A stretch of DNA of 64,000 nt. It comes from Norana najaformis. Lineage: Eukaryota > Annelida > Clitellata > Crassiclitellata > Hormogastridae. Both the position numbers and the translations under genes were made by a program. The stretch lies in NCBI GenBank assembly GCA_964023275.1, contig OZ029929.1:7763937-7827936 (forward strand). Reading direction: 5' to 3'. Shown piece by piece: positions 28,660 to 64,000 of this stretch (the first letter of the stretch is position 1; the number at the start of each line of letters is the position of its first letter). The notes under the pieces are model-generated. The model was not told where the DNA came from, ran no database searches, and worked only from the letters and a program-made list of their open reading frames with translations.

Positions 28660-41710
<13,051 letters not shown>

Positions 41711-50024: not shown

Positions 50025-52651
50025 CATACAGTACTTCAGAGGCATATTTATTAAGCACCTTTTACAAAATAAACTACTCTGTGGTGCTTTTTACCATTTA
50101 GCATTTTACCACCTTTTGACACCCTTACACGTAACATGTAAAAAGGTTGTACAGTTGTTGTATTGTTGTTGTCATGTTTGCATTTCAGCTGAGAAGTATT
50201 TCAACCTCAGAACCACACATCGAAGCAACACTGTTAGAACATTTAATGTAACAAACGAGCAGTTACTCTACCTAACTCAACAGAAGTTATATATATCTAC
50301 ATATTCATTCAAGCAAGGTTCTTACTGGGTTCGCAATGATACACAAAATGGCTCCAGGGCAATATTTGGCACAACCATCAGCAAGATCTCTCACTATAGA
50401 TGCATTTGTGTTGAATAGATCATCTCTTGTCATGCCTAAAAGAAAATGAAAAAAGATCAATGTAAATCATAAAATGATACAACCACAGCTGGAATAGCTG
50501 GAATCGCCTTTCCCGAGAGCTCCGGCTAGTATTCCTCAGTTTGTCTCTTCCGCAGTTTCGCAAGCGCCTGAAGTCTGTATTATTTGCCAGTGGTCTCACT
50601 GGTTCGGGTCGGGAGCGCTTCTGATGAGTCTATTCTTGAAGTGGCGCTTTATAAATGTCAAATTACAATTACAATTACAATTACAGACAATAGAAATAAC
50701 TGCAAACAACAAAAACAACTACCATACACAGAAAAAAACAAAAAATAAACAAAACAATAGATTCAAATTTTTATGCCTGGCACGTTAATCTCTTAATATT
50801 CATTCATCTGTTATTCATTCAGACAATTTCAAGCAACAGAGAGAATCAATAAAATCATATAACCAGTATATTGATATGGCAAATAAATATAAATATAAAC
50901 AAATAAATATAAATAAAGAGTAAATTACCTGGCTTTCGGGGAACTCCAGCTGGAAGAACGACTATCTGGCTGCCTTCTAATGCATCTCGTAGCTGCTTTG
51001 AACCAAGATGACCAGTCACTTTGGCTGGGGTTGAACAGTGACTGATGTCTGCAGCCACCCCAGGGGTGTGGACGATATCATACAGGGCAAGGTGCGAAAT
51101 GAGAGGGTTGAGCTTGAGCAGCAGAGACAGTGGCTGACCTATTCCACCACTTGCACCCAGCAAGGCGACTTTCGTCTCTCTCTTTGGTAAAAAAACGCCA
51201 TAAGCAGACGTCATGCATCATTGTAAAATATTATTTATTATCATTATTAATTAGTAACTTCTTACATGCCGGTGTCTAATGCACGATAGTGCACCAGAGA
51301 CAAACCGCAACCAAGTCAATATCCAGAAGGTCAGTTCACGAGACAGAGAGGCAGCTATGGTGGACAAAGTAACATAGCCAGAGTCAAAAGAGCCAAAAAT
51401 TAAGTTGCACATGGTCAAAGTAGAGTCCATATTCTGAAAGGAGACCATGGAGGCATGGGTATTAAGTCAGTATGGGACAAGAGGGTAAGGGCAGAGGGAA
51501 GGGAATAAAGGACAATCATGAGGGTTGTGGAGGCAGAAGATCAGGTAAAAGGGAGGGAATGGAATTAGGCTTCAAAGTAGTGAGACAAGTTTGTACCCAT
51601 TCAGAGAATTAGTAAAAATAACAGCTCGGATCCTTGTGTTTCAGCAAGTCTAAATCACCAATGACATTAACCATCTTCAGCAAATACACTTATTTGCTAG
51701 ATGGTGCAGCAAACTTTTATGCCTATACCTGTACTTTAAGTTTTATCCTTTGTATATCTAAGGCTTTAGTGTTTCCTGTGAGTAACCTACATGGTTACTT
51801 GTGAAACAGTGTCCTGTTGTTGAAATGAGGTTGTCATGTCTTTGCTTTAACCACATATTTTAAAATTTACAAGTACCATCACAACTGTAAATAAATAACG
51901 TGACCTGAAGAAACAAATCTGTTCAACTGTGGCACAAATGATGTCACCACTGTCTTCTACATTTAAACCACTGTTATGTCCTTATATTCAATGCAACACA
52001 TAGACTAATATGGTTACAGTGACTGAAATAGGCTATCCTCTCAAAATAAATTACATCTAATCACGATCGCAACGTGAAATCAAAAAATAACTTCATTGAA
52101 GTTTTCAATTTTCAAACCCGAAGATGCTTTTACTCGTATTACTATACTACATTTAACTAAACTGTCCTTGGTCACCGTTTTCTCAGACGCTCTGCATTTA
52201 CTAAACCATTGGTCAAATAATTCATTCAATGCTGAAAACTCCCTGGACTTTCACAAATCGTATTCTGATTCCTCCTTTTCCCCTCGTCTTTCTCGCCCCT
52301 CCAGTTCGAAACATCATCCACCGTTGCCGTATGTCTGTCTGCCTGACCCTTGGATCTTGATCTGGAAACGAATCTTACCTTACCTGCCTAGAAATTTTGT
52401 TTGAATGAGCGCCTGTGAATAAGCTGGTTCCCTCGACTTAGCTGTCTTTCGGTGCTGTAGAATCTCGAGTTTACGGGTTCGATTTCCTCCCTGGGCCATC
52501 GCCATCAAAATTATGACCTTGGCACAATTATTTTGGCCCGGACAGAGAAAACAACAAAAATCTCGTATTAACTGTCTGCGCGTACCTGAGCTGATACGCT
52601 AAAGTTTCGGGCTAAGCCCCGGATGATCGGCGATTTAAACACGTTGAACAT
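47415..52651 (-). CDS. MDH2: Malate dehydrogenase, mitochondrial
   Basis: It oxidises malate to oxaloacetate with NAD in the matrix (TCA cycle, malate-aspartate shuttle). Exons in order: 52586-52651, 50929-51181, 50326-50435, 49766-49891, 49244-49348, 48650-48721, 48104-48256, 47415-47555, giving 341 aa (human 338). An amphipathic, basic presequence ([19 protein letters not shown]) marks mitochondrial import. Seen: the Rossmann GASGGIGQP (31-39), substrate-binding Arg104 and Arg110 (VPRKPGMTRDDL), Asp173 and Arg176 (LDIVRAN), catalytic His200 (VVGGHSG) and YFSTPLLLG. All catalytic residues are present and no frame is broken. Exon 2 may start at 51181 or two codons later; both acceptors keep phase 0. 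The C-terminus adds NPCLP beyond the usual end. NIPSNAP is divergently transcribed 1.1 kb upstream. Confidence 0.97.
49932..50020. repeat. (TA)n microsatellite in MDH2 intron 3
   Basis: About 44 uninterrupted TA units, ending in catacatacata. It lies about 40 bp upstream (transcript sense) of the acceptor of the exon at 49766-49891. The open frames it creates are artefacts of the repeat. Confidence 0.95.
50500..50690 (+). mobile_element. LINE 3' end with (AATTAC)n tail
   Basis: 'tttcgcaagcgcctgaagtc' plus tgtatta reads [10 protein letters not shown], a common LINE ORF2 ending. Then follow 'gaagtggcgctttataaatg' and about four AATTAC units. A second copy without the tail is at 56290-56450. 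The last 40 bp resemble the end of family A. It is inside MDH2 intron 2. Confidence 0.7.
51246..51350 (-). repeat. Family F repeat, copy 2
   Basis: Collinear with 15170-15290 through 'taattagtaacttc', 'ggtgtctaatgcac' and 'caagtcaatatccag'. It lies in MDH2 intron 1. Confidence 0.6.
52240..52480 (+). mobile_element. Family A element, longer copy in MDH2 intron 1
   Basis: 'gaatgagcgcctgtgaataa' plus gctggttccctcgac, 'ggtgctgtagaatctcgag' and upstream C/T-rich sequence with words shared with 35870-36020 ('gattcctcctttt', 'tgtctgcctg'). The GATTAC tail is replaced by 'tttacgggttcgatttcc'. It ends about 100 bp from the MDH2 exon 1 donor. Confidence 0.55.
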
Positions 52652-53750: not shown

Positions 53751-56700
53751 ATGGCGGTGGTTAAACGCTTGGGATGTGGGGTTTTTGCAAATTTTGCAAA
53801 AAGTAGGACCTTCTTGCGGCTTTTGAATGAAAGGCAAGTAAGACGACCTTCTGCTGTTTGACTCTGGTAGGCTATCTTGGGTTGTCAAGTTTTATTTATT
53901 CAGTGATTCCTATCGACCCTTAGTTGGACTCTTCGCATGTTCGAAGTAGTGCCATTTTGAACAAAGGATGCGACTGGAATATGGACAAAGGAAAGTAACT
54001 CTCGCGGTTTTGAAAGTTTTGGTTTTGGCGAATTTAAGTGACCAGTGCTTGTCATTTTGCGACAATCGAAATTATCTTCCGAGGCAGGAAGAGCTTAACC
54101 TGTCCTTTCCTTACGAGTCCCGTGGTTTCAAGAATGCATTGGAATATTACTCTTATAATGACCTCGGTAAACCTAGCGTCAGAAACGTTTCCGTTTTCCG
54201 ACTTTTCGTATTGGTATCAAGCGAAATGCACATGAATTATTGTAACTGTAGCTTCTATTGCTGGAAAGTGATGTGAATGTTCATGAATTCATCTGTGCAT
54301 GATCATTAAAAGCATGACCATTAAACAACACAACTTGCATAAAAAGCATATTTGATTCGAATAGAGAAACAATTTTGGATGCAACATGTTTTCTGCCATT
54401 TTGTGATGTACTTACAATGCGATGTATTAAGTGTTTTAATAAAAAATATATAAATATTACACATAAACATGAAAGTTTTAAAAATATAAAAGTCTTTAAA
54501 AACTTATTAAAATTTCATACTATGCATGAGGCATTTTTATGGTTACTGTTTAAATTTTGGCACTAGGAATGTTTCTTTGGGTTTGGCACTTCGCTGTGCT
54601 TCAACGTCAGCTGCAGATGTGAATCCATCACAGCCAGCAACAGATGCACCCTCGAAGGATGAAAACAAGAAAGAGAGTTGGCTGTCAAAGCTGCTGGTCC
54701 GGAAAATTGAGACTGGGTCAGAGTCGCACTCGTCAATGCTGGCGGACAAAGAGACGGTTTATGAACTTCAGAGTGAGTTGGATCAAAATCTGAAGAACTA
54801 AACTCGGACATCAACTGATGGTTGCTGCTAAGCAAAAAACTAATCTACCTGAAACTATTGCTTTCTCAAATTCTTTATAAGTTCAATAAAAAGCAAATCT
54901 TATAATTACTGTTGATTATTTTCACACAGGCAGTTGCTTTTTACCAACTAGCCAAATGTTGCTAGAGCTGAAGTTTTCACTTGGTAGTTATGGCAATTTT
55001 AACAAACAAACTTACTGATAAGTGCCAGCGCGTACATACATATTCTTAACTGCATACTGGTGCATATATGCATGTTCACAAATTGTGCATTTCACGTGAT
55101 ACACTTGGAATTGGATCCCAGATGCAGTAGTAGCAGGATTTCTCATCGTTGTTTATCTGTTTAGTTCTACATTAAAAAAATTATTTTCCTGTTAGTAATT
55201 AATCTATAAATTTTTATTTCATTTCAGTTCACTCAGTGAAACCCGAGTACATGGAGACGTACTTGAAAGAGTTGTAAGTGATTTCAGTGAATTCTTATCT
55301 TTTAGGATTGAAGTTCAAAGCAGTTTTATGTTCTTAATGCAACTAGCCCTCACGACTGTCTGTTTCGCGAGGCCATTGTGGCTCTTCGCTCAGCCCACCT
55401 GTCTGTTTGCCCAGCCATCATGGCTGTTAAGCCATCGTGGCTGTTAAGCCATCGTAGCTGTTTGCTCAGCCATCATGGCTGTTGCCACTGATTGTTTTAA
55501 TGGTGGTTTGTCAATGGCTTCACTCAAAATGCATGGCCTTTCTGCTGTGCTTTTGAAGTCGAGCTATAAAGACAGGACTTGTCTCTGCAAATTCTTGTCA
55601 GTACAGGAATTAGAGGCACCTTCAGTACAGGAATTAGAGGCATCTCCTTTGCTAGTCTGTCCTCGGCTTGAAGACGGTTAAAGACTAGACCTTTGCTAGG
55701 TGTGGTATGACAGTATAGTGGTTAGCTTGCAGGATTATCAATCTAGAGGTCAGGGTTCACATTCTTGTCAGGACAGAACAGTATTTCTACCTGTCTGTTG
55801 TCAATTGGAGGAGGATCAGATGGTGAGTGGAAGTATTGGCCGGACAGCCTTATTTGCCAGGGCAAAGAAAATGCAGGGTTCTGTTAATGCTTCATAGCTA
55901 AAGCTGCCTTTTAGGGTTTGCTTTCAGGACTGATTGTTATCTACATTTGTAGCCTTGCTTGCTTGCCTTGCCTCTACTTGCCTCTTCTAACGTTTGTGTA
56001 CAAGTTTCTAACTGTATATAAATTACAATAGTAACTTGTGCTCTGTCCAGACCTTTGCTGCCTATGTTTGAAAGTTCTTAACAGGAAAGATCAAAGCAGT
56101 GCTTGTTTACATGCCCCTATACAAACTCCTGAGAAATGTGGTCCCAGGGTTTGAAGGACATCTACAGCCACCCAAGTGATGATGTTCAAACCACCCATAG
56201 CAGTACTACACAGATGCAGATTGACCACTGCAATCCAACCCTCTCAACTTGCATTGGTGATTGTATAATAAGCCCAAAAAGATGGAGGCCAAATTGCATC
56301 TATCCTTGTGGTACCTCCTCTCTCTTCCTCTCTCAGGGTTTCACAGGCACCTGAAGACTGTACTGTTTAACAGTGATTTTACTTGTTTGGGTCGAGAGCC
56401 CCCCTGTTGAGTTCATTCTCTAAGAGGCGCTTTATAAATCTTAAGTATAGATGTCTGTTAACCCTTTAACGACCGCAGAAATTTTTTCACCTACCCCATC
56501 ACGACCGCACATTTTTGGCAAAAATGGCCAAAAAATAAAACAATTGAACTTGTTTTATCTCTGTCAGTTTTTTACCTGTAGACATAAGGTAAGCACCATT
56601 CTTTAGCATTTTATCTCCTCTTCCCAATCATCTGTCATGTTTTTTTGGGAAAAGAAATTTTTGGGTACCCCAAGTTGCCCCAAACTATATCCCCCAAAAA

Positions 56701-59700
56701 ATTTGCTATATTTTTATCTTCAAGACAGTCTACAAAACATTTTGAACGACAACATATATAAATTGAGCACAAAAATGTGCAGAAATTGTTGCCAGATAGA
56801 ACCAAACAGGAATTTTAAAAATATTTTCATAACTGAAAGAGATACAATTTTTTAGTATTTAGACCGTTGTCATAAAACTGAAGAAAATTACAGGAAAAAG
56901 GATAAAAGTAAAACAAATTGAACTTATGATATCTCTGTTGGTTTTTGATGTGTAGGCATAAGGTAAGTACCATTCTTTAGCATTTTATCTCCTCTCCCCA
57001 TTCATCTGTCAAGTATTTTGGGGAAAATTTGTTTAGGGATATCCAAAGTTGCTCCCAACTGTACCCCAAAAATTTGTTATATGTTTACCTTCAAGACAGT
57101 CTACATAAAAATTGTAAGTGACAACATATGGTAGTTAGGCACAAGAAATCTGCAGAAATTGTTGCCAGATAGAACCAAACAGAAATTTTAAAAATATTTT
57201 CAAAAATGAAAGATATACAATTTTTTTAGTATTTAGACCGTTGGGTAAAAACTGAAGAAAATTACAGGAAAAGCCTAAAAGCAAAACTAACTGAACTTGT
57301 GATATCTGTGTCAGTGTTTGACATATATACATAAGGTAAACACCATTCTTTATCATTTTATCTTCTCTTCTTTTCCAACCTGTAATTATATTTCTCAGCA
57401 CAACGTTTTCTGGGTGACTGAAAACTGACCCACAATCGCTGCAGGCATATAGCGGATGCCATTGTCATCAAACTCCATATCAGTGTGCCACTTGTTCACT
57501 TCGTATTGCCAACAGTCTCGTGTGATCCATCTGACACGTTTTATTCATCAGTAGAATCACAACTTTCGTTAATATACGGCCATTCGTCGATCGATTGGCG
57601 AATTTCTTCCTCCGGTAAACAACGCTTCGCCATTTTGGGACATTTAAATATCCATTTTTAGCTGCACGCTGGCCGATTTAAATGCCCATTTTGATTGGTT
57701 GGTTTTTATATTCTGAGGTGTTTTCCAGGGATTCTGCTGATGTAATATGGATTAAAATTATACATATTTGCCTAAATGACGTAGAATTCTAAAATTATAA
57801 GGATTACAAATAAACAAAAGGTTACGATATGACTAGCCCCACCTACTACCGATTAGTACCGTGCGGTTGGCTGACGTTACTACCGATTGGTACCGTGCGG
57901 TCAGTAATGAGTTAAGTACATTGTTTTGATAACTGTGTAGCCGTACCTTCATCAGCATGATATCAAGTTCGAGCACTGGAGCAGAGCTGGCAGGCAGTTG
58001 GACCGTGGAAGTGGGGGACCTTGATGAAGCAGGTAAATTTTTTCCATAGCTAGAAATCTGTCAAGAAAACAGACTAGGAAAGGAACCTCCTGGAAAAATT
58101 TACTGGGAAAATTCCTGAGAAGAGTTGCAATGAGAAACTTGAGATGCATCTTTTAAAATTTCTTTAGAAAAATCTCTAAAGGAAATCTGTAGGGCAATAT
58201 TCTGGAAAATGTCTTGGGATCAAATCTAGGAAAATGTTCCACAATATATTAATAAGCAGTTGTAATGTGACATTGATCGTTTGCGTACCACATGCTGTAT
58301 TGTCTTATAGATTTGACTAGCGTGACCTGTGTGAAATGATTTGTGATGCCAAATTTAACATACTGATACATTGATGGAGTTTTTGTAGTTTGATCAACTG
58401 ACTGATCAGTTATTGTTAATTGATTGGGTCATAGATGACTTTTATTTTAAGTTTCCAGGTGTGATTGTTGTTATTCAGTTGCATGATTCATAAGTTTTTG
58501 CATTCTTCCCGTTTGATTAAATTTTCTTTTACTGTTTTGTTGTAGTTCATCTTTGGAAGTTCGAAAGCGGTTATCCTGCTCTTAATCGACACAAAGTTTT
58601 ACTCAGGACAAACCAGGTAAGTGGTGTTGGTTAACAGTGCTGGAAGCAAGACTGCAAAGGCTTTATCTTGGCTTTTAATTGTAACTGTTAGGAAGTTTTA
58701 AATTGACTTCAGAAAGACTTGCAGGGTTTGTAAAATCTTATATAACCTGCAGGATATATGCGTGAAAATACGATAGTCATCACTTTATTGTTCTTGTTTA
58801 CATTTTTTATTCTTGTAATGATCTCCTCATGTTCTCATTTTTCCTATTTTAAGTGTTTTCGTTTGCCCTTTCACTTGCCAGTTTTTCTTGTTCTTTTCAC
58901 CTATTTTGACCTAGATGTTGACATAATCTTAAGCAACTGTATCGTTTAGTAGTTGTTAAACATACTTTCATAACGGTTGAATTATGGCAAATTGTCAATT
59001 TTAAATGTGCTGGGATTTGGAATCCAAGCTGCAAAAATGAAGGGTGGTGACTATGATTTTGAAATAAGAGTCGGGTAATATTGTTTGCCAGGAGTTCATT
59101 AATTTCAAGAAACGTCGAAATACTATGCTACGATCGCGCAAAAACCAGATCCTGCTGGCATTCAGCTTCTGGCCAGACATACAGCCACGACCCGGGAGCA
59201 ACATTTATGAACTGAGGAGCTACGTTCTGAAGGTACAGGATTTTAAGCTGATGCAAGGATTGTCTTGATGGTAAACTGTCAGTTCTAAAGTTGCATTTTA
59301 AATTTGCTATTTATATGCAGATATTCAGATTTATTATATGTTCAGATTTATTATACGTTCAGATTAAGCTGAATACAATTTTTGAATTCTTGCTGGTTGC
59401 CGGTTACTGGCCAAATGTATTACGTGGACCAGATGAATGTGATGCCTTGGAGGACATTTTACAACCTTCACATGTGGTTTTGCAACATGGGGCATGGAAA
59501 CCTTGTTTTGGCCGTCTGAATGTAGTAGGAAAATATGCCAGCAGCTGTAACAATGAGCTAAATTTATATTTTAATTTAAATTAATGCTCAAAACATTTGT
59601 GTGCTAGCAGAAAATGGTTGTGCACATTATCCTCAAAAGTCATGCACGGGCACGCACGTGCATGCAGCTTAGTGGGAACATTGTTCTGAAGTACATTCTA

Positions 59701-62700
59701 AACTCGTTTGTTTTCCTGTAAAATCTTTTGAAGTTCTTTTGATAAAATTTCTCAAGTCCTTCAGAGCAAAACTTGAAATATTGTGTAATATATATGTATT
59801 CAAATGTGAAAGCTTCTCTTAGATAAGATTTCATTTCTGGTTTATAGTATGGTTTCTTATTTTTCGTTTATTGTTTAGTTTCTTTGTTTTGCAGCCTGGT
59901 ACGATGATTGAATGGGGAAACAACTGGTGAGTTCAGAATGGAACTTCTTTTCATGTCGGGTTCTTCATTCGCGCAGGTGGTATACTGTTTTTTCTTGGAA
60001 GCAGTTGATGCCTGTGAACACCAGATGCGAATATGGCTAGAAAATCACAGACAGTCTGGCAATAGGGAATACTGATTTTGCATTGAGGCCTACAGCCAGA
60101 CAGTGGAGAGGTTCTAACAAGGTGCTGTATACAGTGTGCAGATGGTGAGTGTTGGTTGGTGAGCATAACCGTGTGTTACGAATGCTTCATTTGGCTGTCT
60201 TCATACATCACCCTGAATTCAGTATAACCAGGAACTTTGAATACGTTGTCAGCTGTCAAACTGGAGAGGATCTATTGGGCTTGTACGTGTCTGCAAGAGC
60301 CTGCCAGCGGAGACGGCTGTTTGAGCATCATTTATGTGCAAAGAATATCATTTCTAGTGAACTCTAAACATTTGGCTGGTAGGGAGAGATATTTACTTGG
60401 CGCAATGTAAATGCCTAGTTGCATTCCGTTGCATTTAGGGTGCGCTTACCTTAAAGTAACCTCTTTGCAAGGTCACCTTGGTTACCTGGTTGCACAGGTT
60501 AAGAAATGTGTTGGATTGGTTCGAGTGGTTAAATGTATATCTAGAAGTTTGGTTTCCCTCAGGATGCAAATAGTGCAGATTTCTTCGTGCTGAACCAGCT
60601 GGTCATTCGTATCTTGATTTGACAGAACAGTTTGAGTTCCAAGATAAAGGAATACTTTGCATGATGCACAGCTAACAACTGTTGAACTGCTGGGTAAATA
60701 CGTACACTAACAGCATATTGGTTCGTTATGGCAAAACATTAAAAATGCATCGGACAGAGAGAGAATGTACTGAAAATATGAACGGTTAGTGCGATATGAT
60801 CACCTGAGCTGCATTTGGAGTCATCCCTTGGAGAAACTTAAGTCACAAATACCAATAGTTTACAACTGTATGTTCAGAAAGTTGTGCAACACGTACTAGA
60901 GCCATCTCTTTCCAGGTCGGCAGGTCTAAAATTTCGAAATGGCCAGAATGAGGCTGTTAGTGGGTTTTTCTCCCAAGTAGGGGAGCTCTGTGCTGTTCAT
61001 CATCTGTTGGGTGAGTTGTGTTTGGGTGGTTGGTGACCTTCTGTGCAGCTTTTGGTTTCCGATGTTCTTAAAAGTTCTGTTGCAGTTGTTCAGTGTTCAC
61101 TTGTAAGCATTTCAGTGTTCATTATAAGTTTTGTTTCTATTTCTCTTTGACTTTCGTTTTGTTGAACTGTTAACAAGTCATTTTAGTTGTGGGATGGAAG
61201 TCGTCAGTAGATCTGATGAACTTCCGTAACTTGAATCAAACTTAATTGCCTTCTGTCATTGGAAGCATCTTTGATGTTTTTTGAGGAGAGGTGTGGCCAT
61301 CAATGTATCTCCTGTTCAGAGTGCAACACAAGAGTTTGATTATTGTATAAGTTAAATTTACTTGGCATGCTGATAAAATTCTGTGACTTCTAGTTTTATA
61401 AGCTACTCTCTGCATAAAAGTTGGAGAAATATTTGGCCTATACATTTGAGGTTTCTAAAGGTGCTATATAAATATCCAGATGAAATTTTCCAACATAAAC
61501 TGCTTATAGAGTTGTGGACGAACGGTTTGGCCACTCCAGTCATTTCAAACTGGCTCAGACTTTTCTTTTCCAGGGCACGCGGTTTAAAATACCGGCAGGC
61601 AAACAACGAACCGGTTGCTGGCTATTTTTCCCACATTGGGGAGCTGTATACTGTTCACCATATTTGGGGTAAGTTGCTGGTTCATCAGTTCCCCATGACT
61701 GCTCTTATTTTTGAGACTTAGATTGGTTTAAAATTTGCATGTTTGTGCTATTTTGAAGTGCTTCAAATGTCTTGTGCTTTCAATTTGTAGTTGAATCTGT
61801 GCATGCAGAATGCTTTCAATGTGTAGTTGAGTTTGAAATGTTCTGTTTTTTATATGATTTTACATACTTTGTGTTATGTTCACCTGCCATGGTTGGTTTT
61901 ATTAAAAAGTCACAATTTAAGTTTTCTATTGTATGAAAATTAATTAGCCATTACTTTAGCTGTAAAATTTTTCTCACAAACATTTGTCAATTTAAAATTT
62001 TTTTCACATAGATGATTACAATTTTTATATTACTGGTAAAGTTTCTGAAAAAATTGGTACTTTTGAGATTTTCCACAGAAAATTGAAATACTTATTATGT
62101 TTGATTCAATATATTTGTTAAATTTAGCCAAAGTATTTTACAAAGCATCTAAAAATGAACATAGGCTGTAATTTCCATGCATTTTAATTTCCATGCATCG
62201 ATGGGTTGGTGTTCATTCAAGTAGTTAGCTTGGTTGTAGTAGCATTTTGCATGTGCTTTTTACTGATTTGGTTTGTTAACTTTCACCGTAAGGGTGCGGG
62301 GCCTGATGTTCTGATGTGCCGCCATTGAAGCAGGCAGAGGGCTGTTCACAAACTTGGGCGAGCTCTATAACATCCAGTTATAGAGTAAATGTAAATGTAC
62401 ATGTCTTTCTATAGCAACCATATGCACTCGACCCTGCTTATTTTTCAGTGAATTAATCAGGTGAGAGCAAGTGAAGAGTAAAGCATATATCCTAGAATGG
62501 GAGACTGAAACAGGACTTTAAATTTTCAGGTCATAAACTTATGAAAATTGCAGTAGGTTTACCCTGTGAAATAATGAAAAGAATTTTTTAATTTAAATTT
62601 TTTCTTAAACTGGTCCTCTAGTGCTTATCTTGTGTTAATAATTTAAATTTGAAACTGGTCCTCTAGTCCTTGTGTAACAGTGAAACCTGTTCTAAAATTG

Positions 62701-64000
62701 CTTATCTTGTGTAATGTAATGGTGTAATTCATTTGTCCTAATTGTACACTAATATTTATTACAAAACTGTGACTGATATATTGGTTTCCACTTATTATTG
62801 AAATGCAGACAGTATATAATTTATTTGCTTTATTTCATTCTTTTCCTTGGCATTGAATAATGTGTCTAAAAATTTATTTTGAGCTGCCCGTCATTAAGGT
62901 CATGCTTGGGGTTTCATTTTGTAGCTGTGGCTATCCCAGTTTTTCTCACTTGCTTTTAGTTTGTTCTGGATTTCCTCCATTTCTTACACAAACTTGATCA
63001 TAATGCATTAACAATGAGAATGAATTTTTATGATCTTATCTTGTGATACTCTGTATTTGACTTTTCATTATCATGTTTAATAAATGCCTGATGCACGATT
63101 ATGCTGATTTAACAGTTGAGAACACGACTGTAGCAGGTTTCATAATTGCTTGACAAATATACTCAGCTGGGCTTGTGGTAATTTGTTAATTTTATGTGTC
63201 TGTAATTGTTATACCTAATTCAATAATTTCACATTACTACAGTATATTTCATAGTGTGATACTGATTTGATAATTTTGCGCAGGTAACTGCAACTGTAGT
63301 CATATGATAGTTTCACATAACTGAATCTGATCTGGATAATTTTTTTAAAAATCTTATGTCGTCATTTGATATTTGCCACGTAGCTGTTGATATTACCTCA
63401 TGAATGCAATTGTTTGATAACTATTCACTTGTAACAATGATTGTGGTAATCAGATACAGAGTGAATCATGCTAAAGAGCACAAGCTATACTGCAGCAACT
63501 GTGCAGCGTAAAATGACTTGCTTTAGTCTTGCCATTAAATAAACTTCTGCAACAGTGTATATGCTATGATTCATGGAAATTGAGTTGGTGGTGATCATAT
63601 GGTGTTGATGGACATAATACTTAGTACAGACAGATAATGTGACCATTTAACTGTGATTAGATACTGTGGTGATCTTGTGCTGTTAAGTGCTTGGCCGTGA
63701 TGCTGGTTACATTAAACTGTATGGCTGGTGGTATTTTATTCAACAGCCTATGAGAGTCTTCAGAGTCGTAAGGACGTTCGCGAAGCAGCCTGGAGCAGGC
63801 CTGGTTGGGATGAATGCGTTGCCCATACAGGTAAAAAAAAATGGAAACATCTGCACCATAAGCAGTACATCATAGGCTCTACTGTATTGTGGAATGGACC
63901 TTATTCTCTTTCAAAGCCCTGAACCTGTTAAAAGGAAACTATAAAATTAATCGTGTTCTCCTTTCCAGGAATTTGCCTGTTGTTGGTTCAAGGGATCGTG
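53751..64000 (+). CDS. NIPSNAP1/2-type mitochondrial protein (partial, runs off the right edge)
   Basis: NIPSNAP proteins are mitochondrial and, in mammals, collect on the surface of depolarised mitochondria to recruit autophagy receptors. Exons: 53751-53833, 54567-54772, 55228-55273, 57941-58032, 58546-58616, 59092-59232, 59895-59926, then 60916-61010 or 61574-61668, then 63747-63830, with a possible further exon from 63969. About 283 codons are in the window. Family signatures: [76 protein letters not shown] and PGWDECV. The N-terminus ([19 protein letters not shown]) is basic and fits a mitochondrial presequence. Intron 1 needs a GC donor (AAAG|GCAAGT); the GT four bases on breaks the frame. 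The last exon(s), expected to carry an SRIM-like end, lie beyond or at the edge. NIPSNAP1 and 2 cannot be told apart here. Confidence 0.92.
55362..55485. repeat. Palindromic AGCCAT minisatellite in NIPSNAP intron 3
   Basis: Four to six units of about 17 to 21 bp such as 'agccatcatggctgtta' and 'agccatcgtggctgtta'. Each unit contains AGCCAT..ATGGCT, an inverted repeat. A separate 21-bp doublet (agtacaggaattagaggca) is at about 55602-55645. Confidence 0.75.
55696..55770 (+). repeat. Possible tRNA-headed SINE fragment
   Basis: 'agtatagtggttagcttgc' is A-box-like and 'aggtcagggttcacattc' B-box-like, about 35 bp apart. It does not fold as an intact tRNA. It lies in NIPSNAP intron 3. Confidence 0.45.
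56290..56450 (+). mobile_element. LINE 3' end, second copy
   Basis: 'tttcacaggcacctgaagac' reads [11 protein letters not shown], then 'gggtcgagagcccccctg' and 'aagaggcgctttataaatc', collinear with 50560-50660. It directly abuts the piggyBac-like element at 56458. Confidence 0.7.
56500..57400. repeat. ~373-bp tandem repeat inside the piggyBac-like element
   Basis: About 2.3 to 2.5 diverged units. The landmark 'cataaggtaagcaccattct' (with variants) starts at 56583, 56958 and 57330, giving spacings of 375 and 372 bp. Other paired words are 'gcagaaattgttgccagata' and 'tttagaccgttg'. Confidence 0.8.
57541..57633 (-). pseudogene. Remnant of a piggyBac-type transposase N-terminus
   Basis: A 30-codon minus-strand frame starting [15 protein letters not shown] and rich in acidic residues towards its end. 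It looks like the acidic start of PGBD transposases ('LTxEEIxxxL' followed by D/E-rich sequence). It ends at a stop. Beyond it, in other frames, [20 protein letters not shown] can be read, so the coding remnant probably continued further. Assignment rests on this short motif plus the TTAA termini around it. Confidence 0.45.
60916..61010 (+). CDS. NIPSNAP alternative exon 8a
   Basis: 95-bp exon with acceptor tttccag and donor G|GTGAGT, entering in phase 2 and leaving in phase 1. It encodes [19 protein letters not shown] followed by [13 protein letters not shown]. The frame is open and the family core GFFSQ.GEL..VHH is intact, so it looks functional. It differs from 8b mostly at the start and at the last residue (Leu in place of the usual Trp before the next exon). 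Including both 8a and 8b would break the reading frame. Confidence 0.8.
61574..61668 (+). CDS. NIPSNAP alternative exon 8b
   Basis: 95-bp exon with acceptor ttccag and donor G|GTAAGT, in the same phases as 8a. It encodes [19 protein letters not shown] followed by [13 protein letters not shown]. It shares 16 of 31 residues with 8a by my count and is closer to vertebrate NIPSNAPs in keeping AR..KYR and the final Trp. It is probably the ancestral form. Confidence 0.85.
62290..62465 (-). repeat. Family B repeat, copy 5
   Basis: Inverted: 'gtaaatgtaaatgtacatgt', then 'tttctatagcaaccatatgc' and 'ctcgaccctgcttatttttc', as in the other copies. It lies in the NIPSNAP intron before exon 9. The rest of that intron (62470-63740) is AT-rich with no recognisable feature. 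Confidence 0.65.

Follow-up and report, generated by a model that had tools for sequence, protein, structure and literature searches.

Does a NIPSNAP gene of the annelid Norana najaformis choose between two versions of a single exon, or is one of the two the relic of a duplication? The gene lies in the window, i.e., the whole 64,000-nucleotide stretch of genomic DNA that was analyzed; features are on the + strand and coordinates are window positions. In our assessment it is likely that the two versions, exons A (7a) and B (7b), are mutually exclusive alternatives for exon 7 of a functional NIPSNAP gene, with B probably serving as the default and A being used conditionally.

Gene structure and the two versions of exon 7

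The gene model begins with the first recognized coding exon at 54568-54772, whose 5′ border is provisional (the exon with the start codon was not found), and continues with constitutive exons 2 (55228-55273), 3 (57956-58032), 4 (58546-58616), 5 (59092-59232), 6 (59895-59926), and 8 (63747-63830); the last exon, exon 9, is located just past the window end (64510-64574 in window numbering). Exon 5 was recognized by homology to two paralogues and has no Pfam match of its own, while exon 6 ends in a split W codon and is followed by the donor GTGAGT. Exons A and B are flanked by common neighbors, exon 6 upstream of A and exon 8 downstream of B. Exon A (60916-61010) has moderate splice sites, and exon B (61574-61668) has strong ones and represents the canonical version; each comprises 95 bp and 31 residues, and 563 bp (61011-61573) separate them. 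A tandem repeat of about 374 bp lies at 56521-57370, in the intron after exon 2; within it, one 102-nt piece occurs three times (80-81% identical to the first) and five other pieces occur twice (71-94%).

Both A and B possess an AG acceptor and a GT donor, an entry phase of 2, an exit phase of 1, an open frame, and the core G.F.S..GEL..VHH. They are identical at 61 of 95 nucleotides and 16 of 31 amino acids, and their global alignment scores 93, compared with a best score of 15 among 3,160 unrelated AG...GT segments. The segments of this null were 89 to 101 bp long and came from both window strands, the + strand of the 10 kb past the window, and the gene strand of two paralogue loci (n = 3,180, of which 3,160 are without overlap to any exon 7 copy). 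Coordinates and alignment thus bear out an earlier note on this DNA, which had described two homologous 95-bp exons 563 bp apart between the same neighbors; its statements on splice dinucleotides, shared phase, and open frames held on recheck, and the family core that it had called conserved was found in both exons. Mutually exclusive exons have been characterized as homologous exons between the same neighbors, alike in length and compatible in their splice sites and frame (Pillmann et al. 2011, PMC3228551). In homology, length, and neighbors, and likewise in compatible splice sites and frame without an in-frame stop, A and B resemble the pairs in the available parts of that article, with the difference that A and B are known from DNA alone.

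Two trivial origins of the pair were rejected. A duplication introduced by the assembly does not fit exons that are only 64% identical, and exon A, searched as DNA, matched a single genomic position. A partial tandem duplication of the gene would have left copies of other exons, and none of exons 4, 5, 6, 8, and 9 had a clear copy in the three introns searched (best score 33, on the minus strand, in a search made without a shuffled control).

The spliced 70-residue stretch matched the Pfam NIPSNAP family (PF07978) with 82.7 bits when it contained B and 66.0 bits when it contained A, at a cut-off of 22.3 bits. As single exons, B exceeded the cut-off (27.0 bits), whereas A remained below it (14.1 bits). 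The match places the pair in a NIPSNAP domain; that this domain is the second of two, as stated in the earlier note, is our assumption from its C-terminal position.

Consequences of exon choice for the reading frame

When joined in a script, the exon orders 6-A-8-9 and 6-B-8-9 were both open to the same end. With A and B both included, the codons after the A/B junction read G-H-A-V-stop, and the stop falls 165 nt short of the last exon junction; skipping of both (6-8) gave C-L-stop, 77 nt short of that junction. The frameshift predicted by the earlier note for both exons or neither is confirmed, with stops after four or two codons, so that either event is unproductive. By the usual rule of nonsense-mediated decay, the relevant limit for a stop is 50-55 nt before the last junction. 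The stops of A+B, of neither exon, and of a third copy, exon C, included alone (at codon seven of C, 154 nt before the last junction) all lie beyond this limit, making all three predicted decay targets. Read from the gene anatomy, an either/or logic for A and B is supported, and the gene can probably make two protein versions by choosing A or B. Exclusivity would be enforced at least on the output side, since transcripts with A+B or with neither exon would run into an early stop and be degraded.

A decayed third copy

The peptides of both exons, used as queries against the window, located a further copy of exon 7 in the intron after B. This exon C (62293-62384, + strand) comprises 92 bp, has flush AG/GT ends, is one codon shorter than A and B, and contains two in-frame stops. 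Locally, exon C scores 49, whereas 1,500 dinucleotide shuffles of the intron never exceeded 44; its global alignment score was 36, compared with a best of 15 among the 3,160 unrelated AG...GT segments. A profile HMM applied to C alone yielded an unconvincing 0.3 bits, so the case for C is carried by the shuffles and the splice-flush test. The lengths of 92 and 95 bp leave the same frame. The acceptor of C, at -0.2, is poorer than any of the 21 reference acceptors (minimum 1.5), and its donor scores 6.3. With one gap placed by hand, C retains 5 of the 10 columns that are invariant across the four intact exons, i.e., A, B, and the exons 7 of two paralogues, C1 and C10. Its substitutions relative to A lean toward synonymous ones (ratio bound 0.18-0.19; 0.43-0.47 relative to C10), which hints that C was once in use.

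Exon C is new here and represents a dead, perhaps a poison, member of an exon array. In the introns before A and between A and B no further copy was detected, the best scores there (28 and 25) being equal to the mean of 300 shuffles each. The locus probably was a three-exon array formerly: an old tandem exon duplication would have given rise to A, B, and the third copy, which was broken later. The interpretation in the earlier note, the either/or logic of which is backed by the anatomy, was incomplete in that it missed this copy. A search modeled on PMC3228551 would, judging from the available passages, reject a copy like C for its in-frame stops, whereas the description of the NIPSNAP locus given here includes it.

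Exon 7 in two paralogues

A Pfam search of the genome, covering 608 Mb in 17 contigs, found at least six NIPSNAP exon matches in three places, i.e., the present gene (C17), C1, and C10; the number is a lower bound, as exon A is not among the six matches. C1 and C10 have the same exon plan as the present gene over the compared exons and one 95-bp exon 7 each, and no second copy of exon 7 was seen in the 20 kb around each of them. The nucleotide and amino acid identities among the exons 7 (out of 95 and 31, respectively) were 61 and 16 for A-B, 60 and 19 for A-C1, 54 and 14 for A-C10, 61 and 18 for B-C1, 57 and 18 for B-C10, and 60 and 19 for C1-C10. Because these values are similar, the distance between A and B is about equal to that between the exons of the different genes. 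The order in which A, B, C1, and C10 split from one another is beyond the reach of 31 codons.

Constraint on exon A and strength of its splice sites

The gene itself is alive, as indicated by the low dN/dS over the 127 codons of exons 4 to 6, 8, and 9 (0.07, 0.12, and <0.10 between the three genes). For exon 7, the sample is 31 codons with synonymous sites near saturation. The ratio of the A-B pair, calculated by the method of Nei and Gojobori, was about 0.25 (dS 1.41, dN 0.35), which argues against decay. For A-C1 and B-C1, dN/dS was <0.09, with saturated synonymous sites. At positions on which the other three intact copies agree, the shared residue is present in A at 10 of 14, in B at 10 of 13, in C1 at 10 of 11, and in C10 at 10 of 13. 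With C1 as the outgroup, A shows five unique changes and B six. Compared without gaps, the intron flanks of A and B agree at 28% of positions over 40 nt and at 37% over 60 nt, and this divergence marks the exon pair as old.

In neutral simulations (20,000 simulations, starting from B or C1), the probability that A keeps as much without a stop was 0.22, 0.06, 0.014, 0.002, and 0.0003 for 0.2, 0.3, 0.4, 0.5, and 0.7 changes per site, respectively. Half of the A-B dS corresponds to 0.7 per site, a value poorly estimated from 23 synonymous sites; for an A branch as short as 0.2 to 0.3 per site, neutrality is not rejected. With its conserved residues kept nearly as well as in the canonical copies, its intron flanks diverged, and a dN/dS of about 0.25, A does not resemble a duplicate left to decay, and the sequence comparison disfavors the view that it is dead.

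Splice sites were scored against a leave-one-out reference from the three genes, in which 21 acceptors ranged from 1.5 to 14.9 and 18 donors from 3.1 to 10.9; not every exon border is included. Acceptor and donor scored 12.1 and 9.5 for B, 4.0 and 5.9 for A, and -0.2 and 6.3 for C. The sites of A thus are inside the family ranges, yet weaker than those of B. From its strong splice sites and family-typical sequence, B probably is the default form, and from its weaker ones A is probably used conditionally, depending on tissue, stage, or stress.

Exon A also differs in a position on which the earlier note was silent: its last full codon encodes Leu, whereas Trp is found in all six other aligned copies, i.e., in B, in the exons of C1 and C10, and in three structurally solved bacterial chains. 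Trp where strand 3 ends, a criterion set by this analysis and not a published one, is accordingly present in those six and absent from A. Further departures of A from B concern R2 and Y25. This Leu, together with a Pfam score in the spliced stretch 17 bits under that of B, would also fit an exon A that was functional for most of its history but was recently silenced, one step behind C, leaving only B to be spliced. The weaker acceptor and donor point in the same direction, as does an excess of unique changes when C10 is the outgroup (seven in A, three in B), and the decayed sister copy C demonstrates that copies do die at this locus. We nevertheless regard such a silencing as unlikely, because the splice sites, the frame, and the exact length of A are all intact, its acceptor and donor are within the range of the family's other exons, and it has preserved the conserved columns to much the same extent as B. 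Our preferred reading therefore remains that A is a living alternative to B.

How one exon could be chosen

Several possible causes of exclusivity were rejected. The splice sites are of the GT-AG type with U2-type donors (GTGAGT and GTAAGT), which argues against a U2/U12 mismatch; the 563-nt length of the A-B intron makes a steric block by a short intron unlikely; and the AG-free stretch before A and B measures just 12-13 nt, which speaks against a distant branch point. That A and B are not strictly exclusive, with A being a decoy that is included or skipped and lowers gene output through decay of A+B transcripts without any A protein being made, would agree with the early stop of A+B and with an intron that should be long enough for normal U2-type GT-AG splicing, where nothing steric or of the U2/U12 kind is seen to forbid A+B, but we consider it highly improbable, since a decoy needs neither a frame nor conserved residues and A keeps both, in the frame of exons 6 and 8.

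If A and B are mutually exclusive, as we favor, the spliceosome would be likely to make the choice by means of trans-acting factors or intronic RNA pairing. For the latter, which occurs in only part of the known clusters of mutually exclusive exons, a 5′ docking model was equaled by 46 of 60 shuffles. A 3′ docking model, the second of the two tried, was matched by 1 of 60 shuffles and, in another null, by 6 of 392; its candidate docking stretch at 63469-63508 (+) is predicted to pair with 61076-61117 or 62193-62245 and constitutes a weak lead. An equally weak lead is provided by two TGCATG elements, presumably RBFOX-type motifs, at 61736-61741 and 61800-61805 (+), 68 and 132 nt downstream of exon B. 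Two or more TGCATG occur in 1.3% of the 300-nt stretches of the window, and eight motifs in four regions were inspected. A further TGCATG lies at 62248, 45 nt before exon C. A 21-nt inverted match (81%) between exon B (61585-61605) and the region before the exon 8 acceptor (63718-63738) may be due to chance.

Relation to known exon pairs

Vertebrate NIPSNAP1/2 belong to the same family as the present gene (PF07978), and we know of no such exon pair in their genes. Among the open-licence papers searched, assessed by title and the start of the abstract, none was found to report a mutually exclusive or duplicated exon pair in NIPSNAP. Hence, mutually exclusive exons are a known kind, and the NIPSNAP instance appears to be new within the searchable literature. 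The words "nipsnap" and "CG9212" are absent from the main text of PMC3228551. Kassiopeia (PMC3923563), as described in the passages available, covers 12 Drosophila species, Arabidopsis, C. elegans, and human. NIPSNAP1 has been described in mitophagy (PMC12842286), in passages that name no region of NIPSNAP1.

The nearest functional likeness to the A/B pair is found in coq-2, the product of which is mitochondrial. Its mutually exclusive exons 6a and 6e occur in helminths, annelids, and molluscs, and inclusion of one of them remodels the enzyme core (PMC7434440, from the passages available). Like the proposed A/B pair, they are mutually exclusive homologous exons of a nuclear gene for a mitochondrial protein. 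In contrast, coq-2 is unrelated to NIPSNAP, and its splicing, distribution, and function have been demonstrated according to those passages, whereas the NIPSNAP pair is known at the DNA level.

Predicted effect on the protein

The fold of a bacterial NIPSNAP protein was modeled from 27 sequences with a mean pLDDT of 92.8. The model features a strand (residues 2-9), a helix (14-33), two strands (36-44 and 47-55), two helices (59-71 and 73-83), and a final strand (86-94). It matches solved NIPSNAP structures and, more weakly, ABM-type proteins such as LsrG, SnoaB, and olivetolic acid cyclase (among the best 50 of 62 matches, E <=0.001). The bacterial set is biased, comprising the best 80 of 113 loci, with identities to the query of 78-97%, and stemming in part from a search pattern that contained the Trp; 27 of the 80 sequences were aligned for the fold, and invariance of the Trp is not claimed from them. 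By alignment, exon 7 corresponds approximately to residues 22-54 of the model, i.e., helix 1 from about its middle onward plus the second and third strands; the shared Trp sits near the end of strand three.

By homology, a switch between A and B would exchange the second half of the first helix, together with strands 2 and 3, in the C-terminal NIPSNAP domain. An altered binding surface or cavity of the ABM-type fold would thus probably distinguish the two isoforms; many ABM-type proteins bind small molecules. What NIPSNAP proteins do at the molecular level is, to our knowledge, not settled; a swapped 31-residue segment without the widely shared Trp would mark a variable part of the domain, and A and B offer a ready isoform pair for comparison. 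A more far-reaching idea, possible but on balance doubtful, is that the A isoform constitutes a second functional class of NIPSNAP, in which replacement of half of the first helix and of the two strands after it, with loss of the Trp, alters binding, so that splicing would switch a mitochondrial binding or signaling property in the way that quinone synthesis is switched in coq-2; three choices would once have been on offer in the array. The living pair, the decayed exon C, and the two paralogues without a detected duplicate offer a compact example of how exons are gained and lost.

Apart from the NIPSNAP gene, Pfam matches in the window revealed pieces of a protein kinase gene at 39640-40098 (+) and of a lactate/malate dehydrogenase gene at 50858-51217 (-).
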